Assembly (NCBI RefSeq): GCF_900215215.1
Contig: NZ_OBDR01000001.1
Coordinates: forward strand, 124,001 to 188,000
Reading direction: 5' to 3'
Length of the DNA stretch: 64,000 bases
Source of the DNA: Methanohalophilus euhalobius
Lineage (GTDB): Archaea; Halobacteriota; Methanosarcinia; Methanosarcinales; Methanosarcinaceae
A program made the position numbers and the translations under genes. Positions 26,133-64,000 of this stretch are shown here, piece by piece (position 1 is the first letter of the stretch; the number at the start of each line of letters is the position of its first letter). Under the pieces are notes generated by a model that had not been told where the DNA came from, did no database searches, and saw only the letters and a program-made list of their open reading frames with translations.

Positions 26133-27515
26133 TCAGAGACCGTAGTTCTCCGGCCTGAATACCTTGACTTCCTTTTTGTATTGTTCAAGGGAGTCGCTGA
26201 GGAACTTATCTGAATCATCAGTAAGTCCGGCCAGAGCCTTGCTTGCATCGGCAAGTGCATTCTTTTCGAATCTGGTCATCTGTAGTTTGGGATCTGCATT
26301 TTCAAGCAGGTTCACACACTCTACAGCAGCATTCTTTGCACGCAGATAGATATCATCTGAATCCTTGACAATTGCTTCACCAATCTTGTAGGCATTGTCA
26401 TAGGCCAGGATGTATCCCTGTGGATCCCTGTACTTGTCGGAGAGAACCATCATGTCCCTGAGGTTCTTGGATTGACCTGTCTGGAGGGAGACATTCATCA
26501 GTGCACAGTCATATGCAAGGGATTCACTCCAGCACTGTACAGTTGTACCACCGAATTCACCGTGATATTCCACGGATTCATTGGACCAGAGGTCACAGCA
26601 CTGCATTACAAGGTTACCCATTACATCGGAGTGAGCACAGGTAGACGTTTTACCTTCCTGGGCAATCGGCACACCTGCAATGGATTTTACAATGGTGTTC
26701 TCGTAACCACAGTCTTTACCCGGACCAACTGCACCTGCTTCATAGGCGGCAAGGGAACGTGGTGCGGATATGGCCCTGGCAATTATTGCAAGGGTATGGG
26801 CCAGGTTTTTGTCAAGAAGTCCACCTGCAATGAACATTGCAGTGTTTGCCTGTGCACAGTCAGTATCACCAGCTGCGACGACATTGTTCTTCTTGGCAAT
26901 TCCCGCAATGTCCTGCCAGATGTATTCCATGTCCATAGTACCCAGGCAACCAATTGCAAAAAGCATACCCGGTACATCATTTCTTAGAATTGCACGGTCA
27001 AAGACTTCTTTACCACCCATAGTTTCGATGGATAAGAGATCTGCACCGTTTGATGCAACTTCTTCGAAGGATTCCATAAGGGTGTTGTATTTTTCTCCCC
27101 TCAACTGCATATAATCACGGTCTTCACGAATGTCACCAGGAGTGTGTCTCAGAGCGCATTTGATGCCGTATTCATCATGGTAATCTTCCATAATGGCTTT
27201 CTGTGCATTTGCGACCTCTCCACCCCAGGTTGGGTTATTGGTCATCTGCTGAACGTGCTCTGTTTCCAGTACAACTGCCGGGAAACCTACCTGGACCATC
27301 CTTTCCATTATGTCACGGGTAATACGCTCATATTCCTTTACAAGTTTCTCTTTGGTCTCACCGGCTTCTGGCCTTGGTGCATAGTTTACTTCAGGTGTGG
27401 TGTAACCGGCACCAATCTCTAAGTCCAGCCCTGCTTTTACAGGATTGGGGGACTTTCCAAAAATCATATCGTCTGCGCTGGCATATGCCATCTTGGTGTA
27501 TCTGTTTACTGTCAT
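26133..27515 (-). CDS. mtaB: Methanol:corrinoid methyltransferase MtaB (copy 1)
   Basis: Encodes 460 residues, the family's normal length. MtaB binds methanol at a zinc site and methylates the Co(I) corrinoid of MtaC. The zinc ligands known from M. barkeri MtaB, Glu164, Cys220 and Cys269, are present at the same numbers here (LSIE164, GDTDC220, GKDC269). Start ATG 27515 has GAGGTGAG 7 nt upstream; the longer frame to 27605 overlaps mtaC. It follows mtaC1 by 13 bp in the usual mtaCB order. Confidence 0.97.
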   Translation of the reverse strand: MTVNRYTKMAYASADDMIFGKSPNPVKAGLDLEIGAGYTTPEVNYAPRPEAGETKEKLVKEYERITRDIMERMVQVGFPAVVLETEHVQQMTNNPTWGGEVANAQKAIMEDYHDEYGIKCALRHTPGDIREDRDYMQLRGEKYNTLMESFEEVASNGADLLSIETMGGKEVFDRAILRNDVPGMLFAIGCLGTMDMEYIWQDIAGIAKKNNVVAAGDTDCAQANTAMFIAGGLLDKNLAHTLAIIARAISAPRSLAAYEAGAVGPGKDCGYENTIVKSIAGVPIAQEGKTSTCAHSDVMGNLVMQCCDLWSNESVEYHGEFGGTTVQCWSESLAYDCALMNVSLQTGQSKNLRDMMVLSDKYRDPQGYILAYDNAYKIGEAIVKDSDDIYLRAKNAAVECVNLLENADPKLQMTRFEKNALADASKALAGLTDDSDKFLSDSLEQYKKEVKVFRPENYGL

Positions 27516-27528
27516 TTTGCTCACCTCT

Positions 27529-28299
27529 TCAGTGTTGATGGAATTGTTCCTTGAGTTTGCCAAGATCTGCGCCTGCAAGAATTGCCTCTGCCATCTTTGG
27601 TGCATCGGCAGCCTCTTCTCCGTATACTCCTAGTTCATAGGTTGATACGAAGTCCTGGTTTACAGCACCGCCACCACACTGGTATGGAATTTTTATGCCT
27701 GCTTCAAGAAGCCTGTCATTGACAGCCTTGAATGCATACATTGTTGTGGTCATCAAAGCGGTTCCTGTCACCATCATTGGCTTTTCTTTCTTCACAGCTT
27801 CAATTACCTCATCTACCGGTACATCACGTCCAAGATCCACTACATCGAAACCATTTGCTCTCAGGAGGGCTGAGACAATGGATTTACCGATATCATGCAC
27901 GTCACCTTCTGCAACATGGCATACGATCTTACCTTTGGATACAGGTGCTTCCTTGGCTTGGGATTTACAAAAATCAATACCATCAAGCATTGCATCTGCA
28001 GACATCATTACGTTTGGCAGGAAAATTATTCCTTCATCGTAGAGTTTTGTTACCACTCCCATTCCTACCATCAGGGCATCATCTATTAAGGCAATTGGAT
28101 CCTTACCGGCATCAATTGCTTTCTGGAGGCCCTCTACTGTGTCATCTTCTTCTCCCTCATAGATTGCTTCTGCAATAGGGCGAATCAGATCGTCTTTTGG
28201 ATAAAGTTCTGCTGCCGCGTCATCCGGCGTCATTGCTTTTTCCATTTTGACGTTATATCTTTCCAGAATTTCACTGGGATCTACGTCCAAACTGGTCAT
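27529..28299 (-). CDS. mtaC: Methanol corrinoid protein MtaC (copy 1)
   Basis: Encodes 256 residues: an N-terminal helical cap (1-110) and a B12-binding Rossmann domain with the lower-ligand His135 in GDVHDIGKSIV, followed by the conserved GTALMTTTM segment. It carries the methyl group between MtaB and MtaA in the cytoplasm. GGAAGGAAGTG precedes the ATG. First gene of the mtaC1B1 operon, with a TATA box and a start-site hairpin upstream. Confidence 0.97.
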   Translation of the reverse strand: MTSLDVDPSEILERYNVKMEKAMTPDDAAAELYPKDDLIRPIAEAIYEGEEDDTVEGLQKAIDAGKDPIALIDDALMVGMGVVTKLYDEGIIFLPNVMMSADAMLDGIDFCKSQAKEAPVSKGKIVCHVAEGDVHDIGKSIVSALLRANGFDVVDLGRDVPVDEVIEAVKKEKPMMVTGTALMTTTMYAFKAVNDRLLEAGIKIPYQCGGGAVNQDFVSTYELGVYGEEAADAPKMAEAILAGADLGKLKEQFHQH

Positions 28300-28795: not shown

Positions 28796-30181
28796 TTAAA
28801 GGCCATAATTTGATGGATCAAAAGTATCCACTTCAGATGAATAGATATCCAGACAATTACAAATAAAAGATTCCATATTTTCGTCTAATGATTTCAGGTC
28901 ATTCCGGGCCTTTTTTATTGTAGCTTTTTCAAACTTGGATAACTCCAGAAATCCTTCGGAACCACTTTCGATTAGTTCACAAGCTTTCATGCCTGCCTCT
29001 TTTGCCCTCAGGTACATGTCATCCGGATGGGCAGTTATTACTTCTCCAATACGGTAGGCATTATCATAAGATAGTATAAATGCCTGTGGATCCCTGTATC
29101 TGTCCGAAACCATTAGCACATCACGCAAGGTTTTGCCAACTCCGGCTTCCAGTGCGGTATTCATCATGCTGCAATCGTAAGAAAGAGTTTCTCCCCAACA
29201 TTGCACAGTGGTTCCTCCAAAATCTCCCCGGTATTCCACGGATTCATTTGACCAAAGATCGCAACACTGCATGGCCATGTTGCCCATCAAATCAGAGTGG
29301 GCGCATGTAGAACCTTTGCCTTCCTGGGAAATGGGGTAACCGGTAATTGCCTTAATAATATTATTCTCATATCCACAATCCTTACCCGGACCAACTGCCC
29401 CTGCTTCATATGCAGCAAGGGATCTTGATGCAGAAATTGCCCTTACAACAGATGCCACGCTATGGGATAATTTGAAGTCAAGCAGACCACCTGCAACAAA
29501 CATTGCAGTGTTTGCCTGTGCACAGGCCGTATCGCCTGCAGGTACTACTTTATTTTTTTTTGCAATACTGCAGATATCCTTCCATATATATTCAACATCA
29601 AGAGCGCCAAGTATACCAACTGAAAAGACAACTCCCCGCATGTCATTCCTCAGGATTGAATGATCAAATACTTCTTTACCCCCCAGGGATTCAATCGACA
29701 ACATATCCGCTCCTGAAGAAGCGATTTGCTCAAACGATTCAAGTATCCGGGAATAAGCATCCCCCCGCAGATCAATTCTTTCCCTGTCTCCCCGGACATC
29801 ACCAACTGTATGCCTGAGGGCACATTTGATGCCATATTCATCATGATACTCTTCCATGATTGCTTTTTGGGCAGTTGCAATATCAGCCCCCCATTCAGGG
29901 TTGTGTGTCATCTGTTGCACATGTTCGGTTTCAAGTACAATTGAAGGGAAACCAACCTGAACCATCCTTTCCATTATGTCACGGGTAATACGCTCATATT
30001 CGTTCACAAGCGTTGCCTTATTTTCAGCCGCATCCGGACGGGGGGCATAATTGATTTCAGCAGTGGTATACCCAGCACCAATTTCCAGATTAAGACCGGT
30101 TTTCACAGGATATTTTGAGTGGCCAAAAAGAAGGTCTTCAAAATTATCATATTCCATGGAAGAATAACGTTTAACAGACAT
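28796..30181 (-). CDS. mtaB: Methanol:corrinoid methyltransferase MtaB (copy 2)
   Basis: Encodes 461 residues, closely related to copy 1 but clearly diverged (for example AIGCLG in copy 1 is SVGILG here). Zinc ligands Glu164 (LSIE), Cys220 (GDTAC) and Cys269 (GKDC) are all kept, so it should be active. GGAGATCC precedes the ATG. It lies 13 bp after mtaC2. Methanosarcina species carry several mtaCB copies expressed under different conditions; this is a second such isozyme. Confidence 0.96.
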   Translation of the reverse strand: MSVKRYSSMEYDNFEDLLFGHSKYPVKTGLNLEIGAGYTTAEINYAPRPDAAENKATLVNEYERITRDIMERMVQVGFPSIVLETEHVQQMTHNPEWGADIATAQKAIMEEYHDEYGIKCALRHTVGDVRGDRERIDLRGDAYSRILESFEQIASSGADMLSIESLGGKEVFDHSILRNDMRGVVFSVGILGALDVEYIWKDICSIAKKNKVVPAGDTACAQANTAMFVAGGLLDFKLSHSVASVVRAISASRSLAAYEAGAVGPGKDCGYENNIIKAITGYPISQEGKGSTCAHSDLMGNMAMQCCDLWSNESVEYRGDFGGTTVQCWGETLSYDCSMMNTALEAGVGKTLRDVLMVSDRYRDPQAFILSYDNAYRIGEVITAHPDDMYLRAKEAGMKACELIESGSEGFLELSKFEKATIKKARNDLKSLDENMESFICNCLDIYSSEVDTFDPSNYGL

Positions 30182-30194
30182 AATACGGATCTCC

Positions 30195-30959
30195 TTAGTG
30201 TTTATGGAAAGTATCCCTTAGTTTCCTTATATCCAACCCTTGCAGGATGGAATCTGCAATTTTTGGTACGTCTGCAGCTTCCTCACAATATACTCCCAGA
30301 TCATAATCAGAAACAAAGTCCTGGGTAACAGCACCCCCGCCACAGACCACAGGTACATTTATGTCACTTGCAAGCAATCGCGAATTCACGTCTTTGAAAG
30401 CATGCATTGTCGTGGTCATCAGCGCGGTTCCTGAGAGCATGATAGGTTTTTCTCTTTTGACTGCGGCCACAACCTCTTCAACAGGGACATCTTTTCCAAG
30501 ATCAATAACCTCATAACCATTGGCACGTAAAAGAACAGTTACAATCTTTTTCCCGATGTCATGAATGTCACCCTCTACAACATAAGAAATGATCTTGCCT
30601 TTTGATTCATGAACCTGTTTGGATTGCTCCTTGCAGTATTCTATACCTTCGATCATTGCCTGGGCAGAGATAATAACATCCGGCAGGTACAGCAAGCCGT
30701 AATCATAGAGAGTAGACACCACTTCCATTCCTGCCATTAGGGCATCATTTATAAGTGAAAGGGGGTCTACTCCTGAATCAATTGTATTTTGTAAAGCAGC
30801 GACAACTTCATCCTCATCGCCTTCAAAAACAGCTTTGGCTATCTGACGAATATAGGGATCTGTGGGGAACAGCTGTTCTGCCACCTCTTCTGGAGTCATA
30901 TCACTTTCAACCAATATGTTGTAGCGTATCAAGATGTTTTTAGGATTTATATCTATCAT
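30195..30959 (-). CDS. mtaC: Methanol corrinoid protein MtaC (copy 2)
   Basis: Encodes 254 residues. Corrinoid ligand His133 is in GDIHDIGKKIV and the B12 domain contains LSGTALMTTTM and CGGGAVTQDF. It functions as the methyl carrier for MtaB2. GTGGGGAAAAG precedes the ATG. The PAS/GAF sensor gene ends only 68 bp upstream on the same strand, so mtaC2B2 may be part of one transcript with it, or have a short promoter of its own (TTATGAATTTAT-like on the complementary strand). Confidence 0.96.
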   Translation of the reverse strand: MIDINPKNILIRYNILVESDMTPEEVAEQLFPTDPYIRQIAKAVFEGDEDEVVAALQNTIDSGVDPLSLINDALMAGMEVVSTLYDYGLLYLPDVIISAQAMIEGIEYCKEQSKQVHESKGKIISYVVEGDIHDIGKKIVTVLLRANGYEVIDLGKDVPVEEVVAAVKREKPIMLSGTALMTTTMHAFKDVNSRLLASDINVPVVCGGGAVTQDFVSDYDLGVYCEEAADVPKIADSILQGLDIRKLRDTFHKH

Positions 30960-31027: not shown

Positions 31028-34000
31028 TTATTCAACAATTCTATTGACAACTACGACTACATCACTACCGTTCCATTCCCCCTTTTGCATTGTAGTATCA
31101 ACATTTATTAGATTATTATTTTTGTCCATCAAAGTGAACAAGTGTTTCTGCTTGTTGCCATTGAGTGCTTCGTTGAAAGCGTTTGCAGCATCAAGTACCT
31201 GAGTATGTGAATGAATTTTTATGAAATTCATACCTGTTATTTCCTGTTTGGAATATTTCAGGGTTTTTGCGACATTGAGATTGGTGTAAAGGATGCAACC
31301 TTCCGAATCCACTACAAAAATCAGCTCAGATATTGTGTCAAAGAGCACTTGTAGATCATACTGGCTTTTCTGGATACCTGCCTCTTTTTCAATCCTGTCA
31401 AGCACAGAACCTATCTGGTTTGCCACAGTTTCAAGCGAGTTACGTATAGAAAATGGAATTTCATAATTTTTATGGGATGCCAAAAACAGTACTGCAGATA
31501 AATTATCATTGGTTATTACAGGAATAATGGCTGTTGCCAGGAGGCTATCCTTGCCTTTCTTGGATTTAGAGAAAGGATAGATCTCAGAATAGAGTTTGTA
31601 TACGGGATATTGTACTGACAGGAATCTTCCTCTAAGTGAATCCTTTTCAATTGTAGAATTATCTTCAACAAATTCATCGGAAATATTGCGATGAGAGACA
31701 ATATTTAAGTCTTTACTGGATTTGTCAACAATATAGAGAGCACCTGCATCCACACCTTCGATATGAAGGGCCAGCTCGAGTAGCTGATCAAACATTTCTT
31801 GCAGATCACCGGTGGGTGTCAGGAAATTCCCAATATCCATATCTATATCCAAAAAGCGATTTACTCTTTTTCTTTCAGTGATATCAAGGATTATACCTTG
31901 GTAATGGCTTATTTTATTATTTTCATATTGTATGGAACCTCGTTCTTCAACCCAGCGCACGTCTCCCTTTTTTGTGATTATGCGGTATTCCAGATTGTAA
32001 TCCGACATTCCTTCATCTGAATATTTTGCAAGTTTCTGATGGACATAATCGAGGTCAGAGGGATGTATTATATCTCCATATTGTAATTTTCCGGACGTAA
32101 ATTCATCGGTCCTGTAACCAAAATTCTCAATGTTTTCAGATACAAATTCCACCGGCCAATCTTCCTCCGGGGCCCAAAAGAAAACTATTGCAGGACTGGT
32201 ACGAATTACAGATTGAAGTACTTTCAGGACTTCAAATGTTTCAAGAAGTTTATTTTCTTTTTCTTTTTGTTGTGTAATGTCACTTATAAATGCCATTACT
32301 GCGGGTTTGCCTTCATGGTCGATTACAGATGTGCTTATGATTACAGGTATTTTCTTGCCTTTTTTTGTAACAAGTTCAATTTCATCCCTGGAATGAGACA
32401 TCTCCTTTTGCTGCATATACTGCTGGATTTTTTTTGTCATCATACGACGATATTCTTCAGCAACATAATTCCTAAAATCCGTGTTAAGTATTGAATCACA
32501 ATCTTTGCCCACAAATTCACAAAACTTCGAATTTGCAAATTTAAGTTTACCATCCTGAACTACTACTATTGCATCATTGCCGTTTTCTACAATGGAAGAA
32601 TATTTGGTTTCAGAGTCACGTAATGATTTCTCGGCCATTTTCTGTTTGATTGTAGTCCATATATCCTGTACAAAAAGTTCTAATTGATTTATTTCCATTT
32701 CCTTGAAGGCTATATTCCTGCTAAAACCTGCAACAATTACAAGCTGTTCATTTTCAAAAAGAGGTATTTCAATGGTTTTTCCCGCATCCATAACATTGGA
32801 CTTTCGATCTTTGAAATCAAGATTTTCAAATCTTCCAGATACAAATGATTCCAGATTTTCTGTATCAGGAGTATACAGTATTTTTTCAGGGTTGCTATCC
32901 TTTCCCATCCTGCAAAGGTAGCCGCAATCGCTGTCTGTAAGTTCAACTGTAAGTTCAAGGGCAAAACGAGCTATTTCATCGAAAGAAAAAACTTCCAGCC
33001 GATTTAATTTTACAAGGGCCTCAAGTCGGGATTTGTTCATTAGAAGAGTGGCTTCAGCACTTTTTTGCAGGGAAATGTCTTCAAAGATACCTATTCCACC
33101 CTGTAAAACTCCATCCAGAAGCAAGGAATTGCATGTAATTTTTATAGATTTGGATGAATATTGAGTGTTAACCTCGTATTCTCCCCTGTAAGAAAGAGCG
33201 TTTCCGGAAAGCACCTTTTTTATCTGGCCAGACACATCCTTATCGGGAATATAATCAAGAATTTCAGGTTCTTTCTTTTCATCAATAATAGTCTTAAATA
33301 TAGAATTGAAGGCTTCATTAGAGTTGCTTATTCTGCCTTTCCTGTCAAAATAAACAATCCCAATAGGTGTCTTTTCAAATATTGACCTGTATTTCTTTTC
33401 AGCCTCTTTGAGATGTTCTTCTGCTTCCTTTTTAGCCGAAATATCCCGAAATACGACCATTAATGCAGGCCGATTGCCATACTCAACGAGTGAGGATGAA
33501 AGTTCGAAAGGAGTGACTTTACCTGATGTTGACAGTAATTCGACCTCATATGTCATTTCCCTGTATGTTTTTTTTTCAATATCTTTGGTATATTTTTTGT
33601 ACAACATTCGCCGATATTGAATCGGAAAATAATCCAAAAAATGTGTGCCTTTTATTTCATCCCACTTTTTACCAACAATTTTTCCGAATTTGCGGTTTGC
33701 AAACTGGATTTTCTCATCTTGAATTATGATTATTCCTTCAGAAATACCCGATGCGAAAATGGAGAGCAAGTTTTTATATTTTTCAGATTCGTTTTCAGAA
33801 AAGGGATGTTTTTCTAGTGTGAGCATAAATGCAGGTGTATCAGACGAATCAGGATTCAAGTAATGAGCTGTGAATTTGTAGGCTTCACCTGCGCTATCTT
33901 CAATGGAATGAATCGTTGGTTTATTTTGTGAGGGGATACTTTTGAGGGACTGGACAATTTCTTTTTTGGTAAAGGGCCATATTCCAATATCAAAAACTGA

Positions 34001-34159
34001 TTTTCCATAAGGGTTTTCTGGAATTCCTAAATAACTGCTGATTTTGGAATTTGCATATATTATATTGTATTTTCTATCAAGTAAAAGAATACCAGTGTCC
34101 AGAAAATCTAATGCGGGCTCCAGATTAATTTGCCCTTCTTTTAAAGTAGGTTTTTCCAT
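31028..34159 (-). CDS. Multi-PAS/GAF sensory protein without a visible kinase domain
   Basis: Encodes 1043 residues. Approximate order: PAS (15-115), PAS (125-245), PAS (255-370), GAF (375-510), PAS (515-635), PAS (640-765), GAF (770-915), PAS (920-1040). PAS 2 and PAS 4 look like internal duplicates (FANRKFGKIVGK against FANSKFCEFVGK). The protein ends after the last PAS with VVVVVNRIVE; I see no HisKA, HATPase, GGDEF or DNA-binding domain and no membrane helix. It would need a partner for output. Upstream of mtaC2B2, so a role in sensing methylotrophic substrate or redox state is plausible but inferred. Confidence 0.82.
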   Translation of the reverse strand: MEKPTLKEGQINLEPALDFLDTGILLLDRKYNIIYANSKISSYLGIPENPYGKSVFDIGIWPFTKKEIVQSLKSIPSQNKPTIHSIEDSAGEAYKFTAHYLNPDSSDTPAFMLTLEKHPFSENESEKYKNLLSIFASGISEGIIIIQDEKIQFANRKFGKIVGKKWDEIKGTHFLDYFPIQYRRMLYKKYTKDIEKKTYREMTYEVELLSTSGKVTPFELSSSLVEYGNRPALMVVFRDISAKKEAEEHLKEAEKKYRSIFEKTPIGIVYFDRKGRISNSNEAFNSIFKTIIDEKKEPEILDYIPDKDVSGQIKKVLSGNALSYRGEYEVNTQYSSKSIKITCNSLLLDGVLQGGIGIFEDISLQKSAEATLLMNKSRLEALVKLNRLEVFSFDEIARFALELTVELTDSDCGYLCRMGKDSNPEKILYTPDTENLESFVSGRFENLDFKDRKSNVMDAGKTIEIPLFENEQLVIVAGFSRNIAFKEMEINQLELFVQDIWTTIKQKMAEKSLRDSETKYSSIVENGNDAIVVVQDGKLKFANSKFCEFVGKDCDSILNTDFRNYVAEEYRRMMTKKIQQYMQQKEMSHSRDEIELVTKKGKKIPVIISTSVIDHEGKPAVMAFISDITQQKEKENKLLETFEVLKVLQSVIRTSPAIVFFWAPEEDWPVEFVSENIENFGYRTDEFTSGKLQYGDIIHPSDLDYVHQKLAKYSDEGMSDYNLEYRIITKKGDVRWVEERGSIQYENNKISHYQGIILDITERKRVNRFLDIDMDIGNFLTPTGDLQEMFDQLLELALHIEGVDAGALYIVDKSSKDLNIVSHRNISDEFVEDNSTIEKDSLRGRFLSVQYPVYKLYSEIYPFSKSKKGKDSLLATAIIPVITNDNLSAVLFLASHKNYEIPFSIRNSLETVANQIGSVLDRIEKEAGIQKSQYDLQVLFDTISELIFVVDSEGCILYTNLNVAKTLKYSKQEITGMNFIKIHSHTQVLDAANAFNEALNGNKQKHLFTLMDKNNNLINVDTTMQKGEWNGSDVVVVVNRIVE

Positions 34160-34354: not shown

Positions 34355-35446
34355 TTACACACCTTCTGAGTGGTTGTGATTGTCGTGGTTGTGCTGATGG
34401 ACAGCAGTTTTCACTATTTTAATACCATGATTTGTGAAAATTTCCTTGACAAAGAAATCCACAAGTTCCATTAATTCTGAACGAGAAACATTTGAAACGG
34501 CAGAGAGAATCTTTATGGATGGCTGATGAGAAAACGATTCAACCATTTCGGTTTGAGGTGATTCACAGGCACCTGTAACACTGGAACGGATCTTTACCAT
34601 ACCGGTTTGGAAAATGATTTTCAAGTGGCCAACGAATTCCGGATTCATCTTTACAATTTCTTCCTTTAGCCCATTCATCAAAATTGATGCAATTGAGCGT
34701 GCTCTGGAAGTTTCAAGAAAACCATTATTTAATGTAAATTCAGATGCATAAGTGGCCATGTTAGAACACTGTATAGAATTCATCTTTCTCTCAGCATTTA
34801 TTTTTCTCTCAGCATTTATTTTTCTCTCAGCAAGCCTTGGATAAACTACATCACCCAGTAAATGCTCAATAAACCCGGATAATTCACCATAATCTGCTTT
34901 TGCTGAAAAACGCAAAATTTCTGCTTCTGGATTCAATTGCTTTATTGATGACTCAACTACGGGTATGTATAGTTCTTCAATTAAATCGATCTTATTTATT
35001 GCGAGGATTTCAGCATCAATAATTTGCCTCTGGGAAAACTGTTTTGTTTCTTTCATCACCTGTTTGAACCTGCTTCCGTCGACCAGTGTGACCAGAGGAG
35101 CAAAATCCACATCATCCAGATTCATCAGCATAATTTCATCCCTGATTGTAGCAGGAAAAGCTATGCCTGTAGGCTCAATGATCAATATCTGTGGATCAAA
35201 GTCTTTTTTAATCTGTGATACTGTATATTTCAAATCTCGTTTTAGGGTACAACAAATACATCCATTTGTAAGTTCTACTGAGTCAAAACCGTAACTGGAA
35301 ATAACATCGCCATCAACTCCTATTTCCCCTATTTCATTTACTATTATAGCAGCTTTTTGGCCTTTTTCTCCAAGATATTTTCCAATGCGGAGAATTGTAG
35401 TGGTTTTCCCACTTCCTAAAAATCCTCCCACCACGAGTACTTTCAT
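34355..35446 (-). CDS. CobW/COG0523 G3E-family GTPase with His-rich tail
   Basis: Encodes 363 residues. P-loop GGFLGSGKTTT (7-17), switch and Walker B region IIEPTGIAFP, base-recognition NKID, and the family metal motif CICC near residue 64. The C-terminus is His-rich (HQHNHDNHNH), a metal reservoir typical of zinc or nickel chaperones. The family inserts metals, often zinc, into client enzymes, or serves cobalamin synthesis. Lying 20 bp after the corrinoid activator and near mtaA and mtaB, all coding for or serving zinc enzymes, it may be their zinc chaperone. A KINAER tandem repeat lies near residue 210. Confidence 0.85.
   Translation of the reverse strand: MKVLVVGGFLGSGKTTTILRIGKYLGEKGQKAAIIVNEIGEIGVDGDVISSYGFDSVELTNGCICCTLKRDLKYTVSQIKKDFDPQILIIEPTGIAFPATIRDEIMLMNLDDVDFAPLVTLVDGSRFKQVMKETKQFSQRQIIDAEILAINKIDLIEELYIPVVESSIKQLNPEAEILRFSAKADYGELSGFIEHLLGDVVYPRLAERKINAERKINAERKMNSIQCSNMATYASEFTLNNGFLETSRARSIASILMNGLKEEIVKMNPEFVGHLKIIFQTGMVKIRSSVTGACESPQTEMVESFSHQPSIKILSAVSNVSRSELMELVDFFVKEIFTNHGIKIVKTAVHQHNHDNHNHSEGV
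34785..34832 (-). repeat. 18 bp in-frame tandem repeat in the CobW-like gene
   Basis: The unit TTTCTCTCAGCATTTATT (plus-strand reading) occurs at 34785-34802 and 34803-34820, then a partial third copy at 34821-34832. On the coding strand it encodes repeated I-N-A-E-R-K. The 18 bp period keeps the frame, so copy number can change without breaking the protein. It sits in a linker between the GTPase and C-terminal domains. Confidence 0.85.
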
Positions 35447-35465
35447 CCGTTAAACCTTCTCTAGA

Positions 35466-37103
35466 TTATTGTTCCATTGATGATTCCTGCATCATAATAT
35501 CCAGATTTTCCCATTTAAACAGATCATGGGGACAGGCATGGATGCATTTCTGGCAATGAGCACCATCGCATAAATCAGTACGTATCATTACTCTGTTGTC
35601 TTCGTCCTCCATTGTAAGGGCATCATTAGGACAGACCTTGACACACTTATGACAGGCTTCACAGCCTTCAATGATCATCGTAAGATAGGTTCCAACCTTG
35701 TCAAGAACGTGAAGACCTTCTTCCCCCAGTACAGGAATATCTTTCACTACACGCTTTTCAATAGCAGGGACCGATTTTACAGCATCTATTGTAGGTAGTT
35801 TCTTTTTCTTCAGGTATTTTTTGAGGACTTTGAAAGGCATGCCTTCTCCCCAATAGGAAAGTTCGAGAATATAGGCTTCCTTAAATGCATCATCCATAGC
35901 AAACATGACATGTGTTCCAACGATTTCCTCTGCAATTTTCTGTAATTCCCATAACCTGTCCTCTGATAGCAAAATTTCTCTGGCAACTATCAAGGATGTG
36001 TTCCCAATTTGGCTAATTTGGTCTACATCATAAGGGATCATACCAATATTGTGCGCCTTAATAGCATCCATATAGGTTCCTGCAGCACCTGACATATATG
36101 CAGTTTTTATATCCTCCATTGCTATTTTGGCAGCATTACAAAGAGTTATGTGACCTGCCCTGATAGCCCCAATCGCCCTGCCAGCTTCTACAAGATCATG
36201 TTCGTTAAACTTTATTCCATCCTGCAATTGGATGATGCTGTTTTTCAGGTTTATCTTTGGGAGTACTACAAGACCATTATTGATAGATTCATCAATTAAA
36301 GAAATTACACCTGTTCCTGTAATACCATATGCTTCTATGTCTCCCTTATCTATTACCGTACCATCATCGGGTTTTACGAGGTCACCCTGTACAGTATCCA
36401 TATTATCATTAAGGACATAATTACGCAGTGCTTTATCTTCAAAGGACACGTCGGATATAGCATGAGGGCGGGCAATCGTACCATTTGAAATTTCCTGTCC
36501 TTCCAGGGCCGGTCCGGCTGCAGCTGAACCTGTATATATTACATTTCCTACTTTCAAAGCCATCTCTGCATTTGTTCCGTAATCCGTTGCAATTGAAATG
36601 TCTTCATTGTCCAGCATACCGGATTTAACAATAAGTGCAAGAGCATCAGCTCCCACTTCATGTTTGATTGCAGGAGGAATAACGACACTGCAATTATCGA
36701 GATTTTCAAGACCCGGGATAAAAATACTTTTTACAACAGCAGCTTTGCGTTCCTGTTCTTTTATGTTATATTTTGCTTTTTTTCTCTGTCCCGCATATGC
36801 AAGGTCATCAATTGGTATGCCCTGAAAAAGGGATAGCTGGATAGGATTTCCACAAATTGCGATTCTATCAGGAGATGAATGAATCCCAAGTTTTTCAAGA
36901 ATATTCCGGAAAGCACCTATTACTAGTTCGTGGGCAAGATCCTGTCCATAATTCATGGCAAAATCCAAATGATCCATGACATTGGCTCCCGGAAGAGGGT
37001 TATTCATGGTAATCACGGTTTTATGGATCTCACCACTTTCAATATCTACTTTCTGAGCCCTGAAACCACTGGTTCCAAGATCAATAGCAACTCCCACTTT
37101 CAT
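35466..37103 (-). CDS. RamA-type corrinoid activation protein (reductive activase)
   Basis: Encodes 545 residues. An ASKHA-type ATP-binding domain opens the protein (VAIDLGTSGFRAQKVD) and the DUF4445 region occupies the middle. Two C-terminal 4Fe-4S clusters (CEACHKCVKVCP and CDGAHCQKCIHACP) complete the RamA layout. RamA proteins use ATP to reduce inactive Co(II) corrinoid back to Co(I) so that MtaC can be methylated. ATG 37103 follows AGAGGTGG. It lies 51 bp after mtaA and 19 bp before the CobW-like gene, so all three are probably one operon. Confidence 0.9.
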   Translation of the reverse strand: MKVGVAIDLGTSGFRAQKVDIESGEIHKTVITMNNPLPGANVMDHLDFAMNYGQDLAHELVIGAFRNILEKLGIHSSPDRIAICGNPIQLSLFQGIPIDDLAYAGQRKKAKYNIKEQERKAAVVKSIFIPGLENLDNCSVVIPPAIKHEVGADALALIVKSGMLDNEDISIATDYGTNAEMALKVGNVIYTGSAAAGPALEGQEISNGTIARPHAISDVSFEDKALRNYVLNDNMDTVQGDLVKPDDGTVIDKGDIEAYGITGTGVISLIDESINNGLVVLPKINLKNSIIQLQDGIKFNEHDLVEAGRAIGAIRAGHITLCNAAKIAMEDIKTAYMSGAAGTYMDAIKAHNIGMIPYDVDQISQIGNTSLIVAREILLSEDRLWELQKIAEEIVGTHVMFAMDDAFKEAYILELSYWGEGMPFKVLKKYLKKKKLPTIDAVKSVPAIEKRVVKDIPVLGEEGLHVLDKVGTYLTMIIEGCEACHKCVKVCPNDALTMEDEDNRVMIRTDLCDGAHCQKCIHACPHDLFKWENLDIMMQESSMEQ

Positions 37104-37154
37104 ATAACCACCTCTTTTAGTTAAAAGGGATGTGATCAGGCATCCCTTATACAA

Positions 37155-38174
37155 TCAGGAAAAGTATTCATCTCTTCCTTCAACCAGTGCCTTTACATTC
37201 TCAAGTGGGGAATTTGGAGCAATACCACAGCCAGGGGCAACTACAGATATCCCATCATCCAGGGCCTTTTTCACTTCCTCTTTTACCTTATCAGGAGTTC
37301 CGCTGAGTATTGTGAAAGGACTGGATACATTACCAACAAGTGTAGCGCGTCCTTCAACTGTCTTTTTGGCCTCCTTAACATCCTTTACCTTTTCCTCGAT
37401 ACTCAAGCCTTCAAATTTACAATCTGCCATCATATCAAGGATTGGTGTTACATTTCCACATACATGCAATATTTTTACACAATCAACAGCTTCTGCAAAT
37501 TTTGCAAGACAGGGTTTGAGGGTATCATTGAATGTGGTTGGATTCATAAGGTCAGGAGAAGCCACCGGGTCTGCCACACATATCATATCTACTCCACTAT
37601 CCAGAAGGATATTGGCATATTCGATACACGCGTCAGTGGCAAAATCAAGGATGGCGTTAAAGTCATCGGGCTTTTTGATAGACCATTTCATGAATTTCTT
37701 GACACTGGCAAGATCTGAGGCCAGGGTAACCGGTCCCTCCATTCCTGCTATAATCGGTACATCTTCACCTACACTATCCCTAACAATGCCTGCAGCTTCA
37801 ACTACTGCCGGGACCCTGCCCAGTTCAGCCAGGTTATCAGGCATTTTGAGATCATCAATTCCTTTTTTGTAGGGATGTTCTGTTATTGAGGGTTGCCTGT
37901 TCTGGGTACCCATGTTTACTTCACAACCCATGGCTTCGGCAAGAACCGTCAGGCAAAATGGATATCTTACAGCTTCCAACCCGGCTTCAGTATGGGATGC
38001 CAATGCCAGCTTTGCCATTTTGGAAGCATCTGAATGAGCCTCGGGCCAGGATGCACCGGTCATTTCCATGAGTTCTACTGTTGCGGTCTGTGTAACAGAG
38101 GCAACCGGGGCTTTGTCTACAGACTCGCCCTTTAAAGCATTCGTTAATCTGGTTTTTTGGGTCATTTCTGACAT
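37155..38174 (-). CDS. mtaA: Methylcobalamin:coenzyme M methyltransferase MtaA
   Basis: Encodes 339 residues of the uroporphyrinogen decarboxylase-like fold. Zinc ligands His237 and Cys239 (LHVCG) and Cys316 (APGCG) fit the HXC...C pattern of MtaA, which moves the methyl group from MtaC to coenzyme M thiol. The alternative, MtbA (methylamine pathway), has the same motifs, but the mta genes around it favour MtaA. GGAGTG precedes the ATG. A TATA box and a leader hairpin lie upstream. Confidence 0.92.
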   Translation of the reverse strand: MSEMTQKTRLTNALKGESVDKAPVASVTQTATVELMEMTGASWPEAHSDASKMAKLALASHTEAGLEAVRYPFCLTVLAEAMGCEVNMGTQNRQPSITEHPYKKGIDDLKMPDNLAELGRVPAVVEAAGIVRDSVGEDVPIIAGMEGPVTLASDLASVKKFMKWSIKKPDDFNAILDFATDACIEYANILLDSGVDMICVADPVASPDLMNPTTFNDTLKPCLAKFAEAVDCVKILHVCGNVTPILDMMADCKFEGLSIEEKVKDVKEAKKTVEGRATLVGNVSSPFTILSGTPDKVKEEVKKALDDGISVVAPGCGIAPNSPLENVKALVEGRDEYFS

Positions 38175-62460: not shown

Positions 62461-62922
62461 ATGGCCAATGCGATGGAGATATACCAGCTTCTCCCGAAGA
62501 CTAACTGCAAGAAATGTGGCAAATCCTCATGTATGGCCTTTGCTGCAGCCTTGCTTTCCAGGGAGAATAAACTTGATGAATGTACTCCGATGCTGGAAGA
62601 GGAAAAATACAGTGAAAATTACACAAAACTTAAAGGTCTGATTTCACCTGCAGAAGAGGCGTCAGAAACCGGCATGATTGTACATGAGGAGCTATGCATA
62701 GGTTGTGGCAATTGTGTTGTCGCCTGTCCTGTAAATGTCGCAGAAGACCCAAAAGGTGCAGGTAGTGGAAACGCACCTACTAACGAAAGGGTAATCCTGA
62801 AAGTTGAAGACGGTGTTGTACGTCTATCCAATGTGGAAGATTGCCGCAGATTCGGAGAGAATAAAATACTTTGTAGCGGTTGCATAGTTACCTGCCCCAC
62901 AAAAGCAATTGAATTTGTCTGA
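62461..62922 (+). CDS. Fe-S protein with 4Fe-4S and CFeSP-like domains (formylmethanofuran dehydrogenase associated)
   Basis: Encodes 153 residues. The N-terminal NCKKCGKSSCMAFA motif is the Fe-S domain also found in corrinoid Fe-S proteins. The second half has a ferredoxin-type pair of motifs (CIGCGNCVVACP and CSGCIVTCP). It precedes the formylmethanofuran dehydrogenase subunit B gene by 16 bp, and Methanosarcina fmd/fwd operons start with comparable Fe-S subunits. It probably supplies electrons to that enzyme. The exact subunit letter is not certain. Confidence 0.78.
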   Translation: MANAMEIYQLLPKTNCKKCGKSSCMAFAAALLSRENKLDECTPMLEEEKYSENYTKLKGLISPAEEASETGMIVHEELCIGCGNCVVACPVNVAEDPKGAGSGNAPTNERVILKVEDGVVRLSNVEDCRRFGENKILCSGCIVTCPTKAIEFV

Positions 62923-62938
62923 TTTTAGGAGGGAGCCT

Positions 62939-64000
62939 TTGGAAAGAGAATACCATGTTTGTACAGGATGCGCTCTTTTGTGTGACGATATAGAACTGAG
63001 GGAAGAAGAAAACAAGACCATTATAGATAGTGCCTGTCGCAAAGGGGTTGCGTGGATAAAAAATTGCCAGCATCCTCTAGAGTGTACTGTGGATGCAAAA
63101 GATGCCACATCTCAGGATGCAATTGAAAAGGCAGCTGAAATTCTGAAAAGTGCCAAAAATCCCCTCATATTTGGTATGGGAAATTCGAGTCTTAAAGCCC
63201 AGGAAAAAGCCATTGAACTGGCAAAAAAATCCAATGCCTGCATTGATGACACCTCATCGTTCTGCCAGGGTCCTTTTGTTGAAGCAATTCTCAATGATAA
63301 AATCAAAAGTTGTACACTGGATGAAGTAAGGGACAAGGCTGATGTAATTGTATACTGGGGATGTGATCCTTCAAATTCCCATCCCAGACATCTTTCTAAA
63401 TATTCTTATTTTCCCAGGGGAAGAATGCGCCAGAGGGGGTGGGAAGAAGACAGGACGGCAATAGCAATTGATGTACGCAAATCGGATACAGCAATAATAT
63501 GTGAAGATAATTTTTACCGGATTCCTCCAAAAGCAGACGCCGAATTTGCCCGGGCTCTGACAGAAGCCCTATCAGGAAAAGTACCGAAAGTAACCTTTGG
63601 TATGAAACCAAAAGAAATTCTTGAACTTGCAAACGTGCTGAAAAAAGCAGAATTCGGTGTGATATTTGCAGGATTGGGGCTGGTTTATTCCATGCACGAC
63701 CTATCACCCATGGAAGATCTTCTGGAAGCCCTGAACAAGAAGACAGACTTCCATTTGATGCCTATGGTCGGGCAGTATAACATGCGTGGCTTCAACCATA
63801 CCCTGTTTGACCAAACAGGCTATATTAACAGGGTAAGTTTTGATGGGGAAGATATAGGTCATGGGCCCCAATACTCAGTTGTGGAGGTATTGAAAGAGAA
63901 AAGAGTAGACGCTGCCCTTATCATCGGTTCAGACCCCCTTTCCAGCCTGCCCGGGAGTATAGCTGCAAATCTCAAAGAAATCCCAACCATTGTAATTGAC
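62939..64000 (+). CDS. Formylmethanofuran dehydrogenase subunit B (3' cut by window end)
   Basis: The first 354 codons are present. They start with TTG 62939 after a strong GGAGG, then CTGCALLCDDIEL (4Fe-4S motif) and the metal-ligand Cys in YWGCDPSNSHPRH. This is the catalytic molybdopterin subunit that reduces CO2 to formyl-methanofuran, or runs the reverse oxidation during methylotrophic growth. The ligand residue is Cys (no in-frame UGA), so it is not a selenoprotein. Mo (Fmd) or W (Fwd) form cannot be told from this part. Confidence 0.93.
   Translation, partial: MEREYHVCTGCALLCDDIELREEENKTIIDSACRKGVAWIKNCQHPLECTVDAKDATSQDAIEKAAEILKSAKNPLIFGMGNSSLKAQEKAIELAKKSNACIDDTSSFCQGPFVEAILNDKIKSCTLDEVRDKADVIVYWGCDPSNSHPRHLSKYSYFPRGRMRQRGWEEDRTAIAIDVRKSDTAIICEDNFYRIPPKADAEFARALTEALSGKVPKVTFGMKPKEILELANVLKKAEFGVIFAGLGLVYSMHDLSPMEDLLEALNKKTDFHLMPMVGQYNMRGFNHTLFDQTGYINRVSFDGEDIGHGPQYSVVEVLKEKRVDAALIIGSDPLSSLPGSIAANLKEIPTIVID

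Follow-up and report, generated by a model that had tools for sequence, protein, structure and literature searches.

Most archaeal GTPases of the COG0523 family were assigned by Haas et al. in 2009 to a subfamily 13, which is co-localised with corrinoid-dependent methyltransferases and clusters with mtaA, mtaB, mtaC and ramM in three Methanosarcina species and in Methanococcus maripaludis (PMC2770081). That paper also notes the zinc dependence of MtaA and MtaB, reports MA4382 from cells grown on methanol and predicts a regulator, ZntR, to control MA4381 jointly with znuABC, so that the basis of a zinc hypothesis for these proteins was already in print. For the related GTPases YeiR and YjiA, a preference for Zn(II) in cells has been calculated, and CobW itself takes Co(II) (PMC7895991). 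We analysed a stretch of 64,000 nucleotides from Methanohalophilus euhalobius (contig NZ_OBDR01000001.1, positions 124,001 to 188,000, hereafter the window), in which the methanol operon carries a GTPase of this metal-delivery family. Like subfamily 13, the window gene is co-localised with corrinoid methyltransferase genes, and it shares with MA4381 and MA4382 of Methanosarcina acetivorans the clade, the CxCC motif and the neighbours mtaA and ramM. Unlike them, it is present in a single copy in the window, has no recognisable znuA-type palindrome (described below) and has a PAS/GAF gene and two pairs of mtaC and mtaB downstream. Its closest fixed partner across genera is the corrinoid reductive activase and not mtaA.

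The core of the locus consists of three genes:

37155 to 38174, minus strand: mtaA, methylcobamide:coenzyme M methyltransferase (NF040654, 538 bits, cut-off 400; aligned to 4ay7)
35466 to 37103, minus strand: RamA-type corrinoid reductive activase of the methanol type, 'RamM' (TIGR04270, 776 bits, cut-off 500)
34355 to 35446, minus strand: COG0523/G3E GTPase gene, cobW-like (PF02492, 139 bits, gathering cut-off 20.7; CICC motif and His-rich tail)

This order and strand, with 51 bp between mtaA and the activase and 19 bp between the activase stop and the cobW start, had been described in a first-pass annotation made from the letters of the window, and was borne out by the open reading frames (ORFs). 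The activase frame is open upstream to a TTG at 37154; the likely start is the ATG at 37103, which matches the 51 bp gap. RACo domains and a ferredoxin domain were recognised in this protein, and its C-terminal cysteines were seen. Since the gene set recurs in several genera of Methanosarcinaceae, its arrangement in the window is not a matter of chance.

Eighty Methanosarcinaceae genomes were searched with the COG0523, MtaA and activase proteins, distances being computed from match coordinates and identities of at least 60% and at least 57% being required for a methanol-type activase and for MtaA, respectively. Genus names given to relatives of the window genome are presumptive. Among the matches listed, a methanol-type activase was present in 66 genomes, MtaA in 66 and a window-type COG0523 protein in 65. 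In 52 of the 80 genomes, the GTPase gene and the activase were immediate neighbours on one strand; among the matches listed, no more than 25 kb separated the two in 64 of the 65 genomes with a window-type match. Activase and mtaA were adjacent in 36 genomes, and the activase-GTPase pair also held in genera where mtaA is not beside the activase (g5, g6, g9, g10 and g14). In Methanococcoides, 13-20 kb lie between the activase and the GTPase gene, which is found towards the end of the cluster that holds both. Absence followed the same line: 13 of the 14 genomes without a methanol-type activase were also without a window-type GTPase among the matches listed, the exception (G031) having its gene at a contig end. 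Other COG0523 copies were present in three of the activase-less genomes (G015, G041 and G048; the G041 copy is not on the tree described below), and two activase-positive genomes (G023 and G063) had no window-type GTPase among the matches listed. Copies per genome are few: matches of any kind to the window GTPase, distant GTPases included, were found in 71 of the 80 genomes and numbered 1 to 7 in each of these; G409 had 8.

Seen from mtaA, the association was looser. The first-pass annotation had named absence of the GTPase gene from most mtaA loci as evidence against its hypothesis, and the outcome was borderline: within the fetched flanks of 80 named mtaA loci, a COG0523 gene was found in 43, an activase (at least 60% identity) in 42 and both in 34, so that absence from most such loci is not clear-cut. 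The 37 loci without a COG0523 gene include short contigs, Methanosarcina loci with a second mtaA, and six Methanococcoides loci, in which the GTPase gene seems to lie beyond the fetched flank. One Methanosarcina locus (L167) has mtaA and the activase with about 4 kb of following sequence and no GTPase gene.

A quick tree of 107 COG0523 proteins was built by maximum likelihood (support by the Shimodaira-Hasegawa-like approximate likelihood ratio test, SH-aLRT; no bootstrap), and the window GTPase belonged to a clade of 65 members with a support of 90. This clade included both activase-linked copies of G409 (L216 rows), a genome which we take from its gene order to be M. acetivorans C2A, the MA numbers of its copies being assigned on the same assumption. 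As read from the tree labels, an activase lies within 1.3 kb for 55 of the 65 members. All three CxCC cysteines were invariant in the 65 members, and at least four histidines were present within the last 45 residues in 50 of them, which makes the His tail common but not universal. Most other Methanosarcinaceae copies in the tree fell into a second clade (31 members, SH-aLRT 99).

At the protein level, the CICC motif and the His-rich tail named by the first-pass annotation are present: the window GTPase has the Walker A sequence GGFLGSGKTT, CICC at residues 63-66 and a His-rich C-terminal tail ending HQHNHDNHNHSEGV. Its AlphaFold model had a mean predicted local distance difference test score of 82, lowest at residues 63-67 (CICC loop) and 352-363 (tail). 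The top three fold matches in the PDB were entries of E. coli YjiA, two of them titled as Zn(II)-bound, and YjiA was the best PDB match by sequence profile as well. The overall superposition was poor (template modelling score 0.36, root-mean-square deviation about 20), which a different placement of the domains probably explains. A G3E GTPase domain and CxCC are common to the window protein and to the zinc GTPases of the E. coli YjiA and bacterial ZigA types; unlike these, it sits in a catabolic operon, and it scored far below the cut-off of the ZigA model NF038288 (90 against 600 bits). It also fell below that of the CobW-related selenoprotein model NF041053 (115 against 180 bits). That the protein belongs to a family of metal-chaperone GTPases and is linked with the use of methanol is well supported. 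Across five Methanohalophilus loci, the GTPase diverged faster than its neighbours: identities to the window proteins were 58-84% for the GTPase, 80-97% for MtaA and 74-94% for the activase. Its linker contains a tandem ERKINA repeat.

We consider it about an even chance that this protein is a metal chaperone dependent on GTP, with zinc as the likeliest metal, which delivers to the methanol methyltransferases. In favour of this are the invariant CxCC cysteines and frequent His tails of its clade, the YjiA fold matches, the Zn(II) preference calculated for YeiR and YjiA, the palindrome described below and the shared absence of GTPase and methanol-type activase in 13 of 14 genomes. The residues of the putative clients are in agreement with this: H237, C239 and C316 of MtaA, and E164, C220 and C269 of MtaB, were reported intact by the first-pass annotation and are present in the window MtaA and in both window MtaB copies, which align lengthwise with chains of the solved structures 4ay7 and 2i2x, respectively. 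We take these residues, whose presence alone was checked, to be the zinc ligands. In the proposed scheme, the COG0523 protein would be a GTP-switched metal carrier dedicated to the methanol:coenzyme M methyltransferase system. The GTP-loaded form would most likely bind Zn(II) at CICC, the His tail may serve as a local metal store, and GTP hydrolysis would hand zinc to newly made MtaA and/or MtaB. If the gene is co-transcribed with the activase, as appears probable, both maturation steps, loading of the metal and reduction to Co(I), would become available at the same time as the methyltransferases.

The search was extended to a phylum sample of 392 genomes, among which 83 had an MtaA-family match. 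The 22 of these that were followed up came from other families than Methanosarcinaceae; a COG0523-type match (expectation value, E, of 1e-8 or better) was found in 12 and an activase-type match in 7. Four of the seven activase-bearing genomes, which belong to genus g37, probably Methanosphaera, have the order mtaB-mtaA-mtaC-cobW-ramA, one of them with an extra ORF before cobW. In these loci cobW precedes ramA, with a 4-bp overlap in three of the four. Their GTPases were placed outside both clades of the tree, several branches being long and the placements unsure. Around the COG0523 genes of seven genomes from other families (G218, G243, G252, G260, G269, G290 and G355), no mta neighbours were recognised, one of these contigs being only 3.5 kb long.

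A possible link with metal regulation came from a palindrome, TTTGGYAT-N-ATRCCAAA. It had initially been noticed by eye in the very sequences in which it was later tested, and its enrichment at COG0523 genes is therefore partly circular. It precedes znuA in G024 (no mismatch), G014 and G407 (1 mismatch) and G000 (2 mismatches), with half-sites or weaker sites only before znuA in G409 and G004. Allowing up to 3 mismatches, it precedes 6 of 122 COG0523 genes (L224 and L242, perfect; L247, 1 mismatch; both L081 genes and L216, 2 mismatches) versus 11 of 978 other genes. None of the 51 COG0523 genes right behind an activase had it, versus 6 of the 71 others (Fisher p 0.04). A looser search for half-sites retrieved 9 of 107 COG0523 genes (within 350 bp) versus 19 of 922 others (within 300 bp), two of the nine, L085 and L218, directly following an activase with single sites. 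Near mtaA or activase genes, a site with 3 mismatches was found within 400 bp of 5 of 110, identical in sequence and always before the activase. The whole window holds 6 sites with up to 3 mismatches, none of them before mtaA, versus 2.2 expected (6 were reached in 2 of 100 shuffles); the best one (63596-63612, 1 mismatch) is inside a long ORF at 62909-64000, presumably a formylmethanofuran dehydrogenase subunit. Whole-genome counts at up to 2 mismatches in 13 genomes were not clearly above the reversed-pattern control (3 to 10 versus 2 to 10 per genome, among the matches listed). With these cautions, the presence of the palindrome before a small number of COG0523 copies, all detached or in tandem, agrees with the ZntR prediction of 2009 and extends it.

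Several observations weigh against a GTPase dedicated to supplying zinc to the methanol enzymes. In none of the 80 Methanosarcinaceae genomes was its gene directly beside mtaA. The palindrome is absent from the window operon (no site within 400 bp upstream of mtaA has fewer than 5 mismatches), and was found neither in four of the seven Methanolobus loci fetched for it (L243-L246) nor at four further Methanosarcina copies (L248-L251). Two perfect palindromes precede a CbiM/CbiQ/CbiO-type transporter in G407 (L254:5755-8841), so that zinc is not proven as the sensed metal. Genome G007 keeps two MtaA-family genes with one very weak COG0523 match (E 5.7e-9), and such enzymes thus seem to obtain their zinc in its absence. 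Outside the family, G094 (84% complete) has an mtaB-mtaA-mtaC-ramA operon and no COG0523 match, which makes a strict requirement for the GTPase unlikely; in G097, MtaA and RamA are apart and only a short, HypB-sized match was obtained, and G255 has MtaA, MtaC and a RamA-like gene with no COG0523 match. Three of seven activase-bearing genomes being without it, the GTPase appears favoured but not indispensable. The zinc chaperone for MtaA and MtaB suggested by the first-pass annotation is plausible and stands as regards the family and the tie to methanol, but the activase as neighbour, the operon without palindrome and the operons without GTPase call for it to be refined. The best reading of these data is that the GTPase is an accessory which helps the methanol methyltransferases but which they can do without.

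The main rival explanation, possible if rather doubtful, is that the GTPase acts with the RamA-type activase on MtaC, as a GTP gate or as a cobalt or corrinoid handler in reductive activation or repair. MeaB/MMAA, the G-protein of methylmalonyl-CoA mutase, would be the model, being likewise a GTPase linked to a B12 enzyme. The adjacency of the two genes in most genomes, its persistence where mtaA is not beside the activase and the cobW-ramA overlap in the Methanosphaera-like loci all speak for such a partnership, as do two copies of the other clade (L100 and L111) that stand beside RamA-like genes. The invariant CxCC cysteines argue against it, as does the fold, for which MeaB/MMAA matches were weaker than YjiA; to our knowledge, MeaB has no metal site of the CICC type found in the window protein. 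Other-clade COG0523 genes also follow MtaA-type genes at 39-213 bp (L095, L098, L101 and L106), and for L095, L098 and L106 there is no adjacent activase. Conversely, 17 of 82 methanol-type activase copies had no window-type GTPase gene within 25 kb among the matches listed (15 of the 17 are second activase copies of genera g8 and g11), and operons with activase and MtaC exist without the GTPase (L222 and L223). It is unlikely that the protein is a GTP switch acting with the activase on MtaC such that activation would be both ATP- and GTP-dependent and zinc would be structural or sensing.

It is less probable still that the protein has a general role in zinc storage or zinc sparing and that its gene is simply carried along in an operon of high expression. 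The frequent His-rich tail would fit such a role, as would the znuA-type palindromes of the few detached or tandem copies that have one; the absence of the GTPase from nearly all genomes without a methanol-type activase does not, nor does its placement with mta genes both in Methanosarcinaceae and in all four Methanosphaera-like loci. That the protein is the CobW of cobalamin synthesis, bringing Co(II) to the corrin ring, is highly improbable. It shares with CobW the GTPase domain, CxCC and a His stretch. The common database name and the Co(II) taken by CobW (PMC7895991) favour this reading, but the window protein was rejected as such by TIGR02475 (75 bits against a cut-off of 332) and no cobalamin-synthesis enzyme was present among the six operon proteins scanned.

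Downstream of cobW, the minus strand continues with the following genes:

31028 to 34159, minus strand: PAS/GAF sensor-like protein (domain matches), starting 195 bp after cobW
30195 to 30959, minus strand: mtaC, methanol corrinoid protein (NF040655, 447 bits)
28796 to 30181, minus strand: mtaB, methanol:corrinoid methyltransferase (NF040651, 776 bits; E164, C220, C269)
27529 to 28299, minus strand: second mtaC (from its translation; homologous second copies in sister loci were labelled MtaC by BLAST)
26133 to 27515, minus strand: second mtaB (aligned to 2i2x; E164, C220, C269, counting from MTVNRY)

The PAS/GAF gene was also found 3' of cobW in loci of genera g1, g6, g7 and g13. It lies between cobW and mtaC in several genera, and none was seen there in, for example, Methanolobus and Methanosarcina. 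In locus L060 (2293-9146), the activase-GTPase pair is located 3' of genes for a DtxR-family regulator and a FeoB iron transporter, and the activase is preceded by a gap of about 285 bp. ORFs of similar size and order are present in other loci of Methanolobus and Methanomethylovorans.

The genome of the window carries a second COG0523 gene elsewhere (G000:C18:350691-351704; L095:7647-9764), 42 bp after an MtaA-like gene whose product has 41% identity to the window MtaA and keeps the H-x-C...C triad. Besides this L095 protein, the triad was kept by the MtaA-type proteins near other COG0523 copies (L098, L100, L101, L106 and L108) and in all seven aligned proteins with fused corrinoid and MtaA domains. 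Both this and the COG0523 genes placed 39-213 bp behind MtaA-type genes speak for the zinc reading. Several copies of the second clade are found beside MtaA-type genes or such fused proteins, with a thermosome-like gene. The recurring cluster comprises a COG0523 gene, a group II chaperonin (thermosome) paralogue and a fused corrinoid-MtaA gene, sometimes with a RamA-like or hydantoinase-like gene:

L056:11185-17270, L100:7704-15176 and L111:269-9007: thermosome-COG0523 clusters recognised by family models
L101:5525-11648 and L216:12211-18678: thermosome-COG0523 clusters recognised by BLAST

The cluster resembles a methyltransferase accompanied by dedicated helpers for folding and metal supply.

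A literature search that left out most subscription journals brought up no experimental work on COG0523 genes of methanogens after the 2009 paper, and the available parts of PMC4928046 and PMC10684969 hold nothing on the GTPase gene. The CobW genes of a chloromethane degrader offered no parallel, being listed as core genes with no plasmid copy in the part of PMC3621897 available. What is new here is modest: the activase as closest fixed partner, another methanogen family with the same set reordered, a znuA-type site on some detached or tandem copies and not on the operon copy, and the existence of operons without the GTPase.

Methylotrophic methanogens use methanol as a substrate, and the enzymes involved depend on zinc, a corrinoid and an activase. 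Should the zinc be loaded, or the activase be helped, by a dedicated GTPase, the supply of metal would be a step at which methane formation can be controlled.

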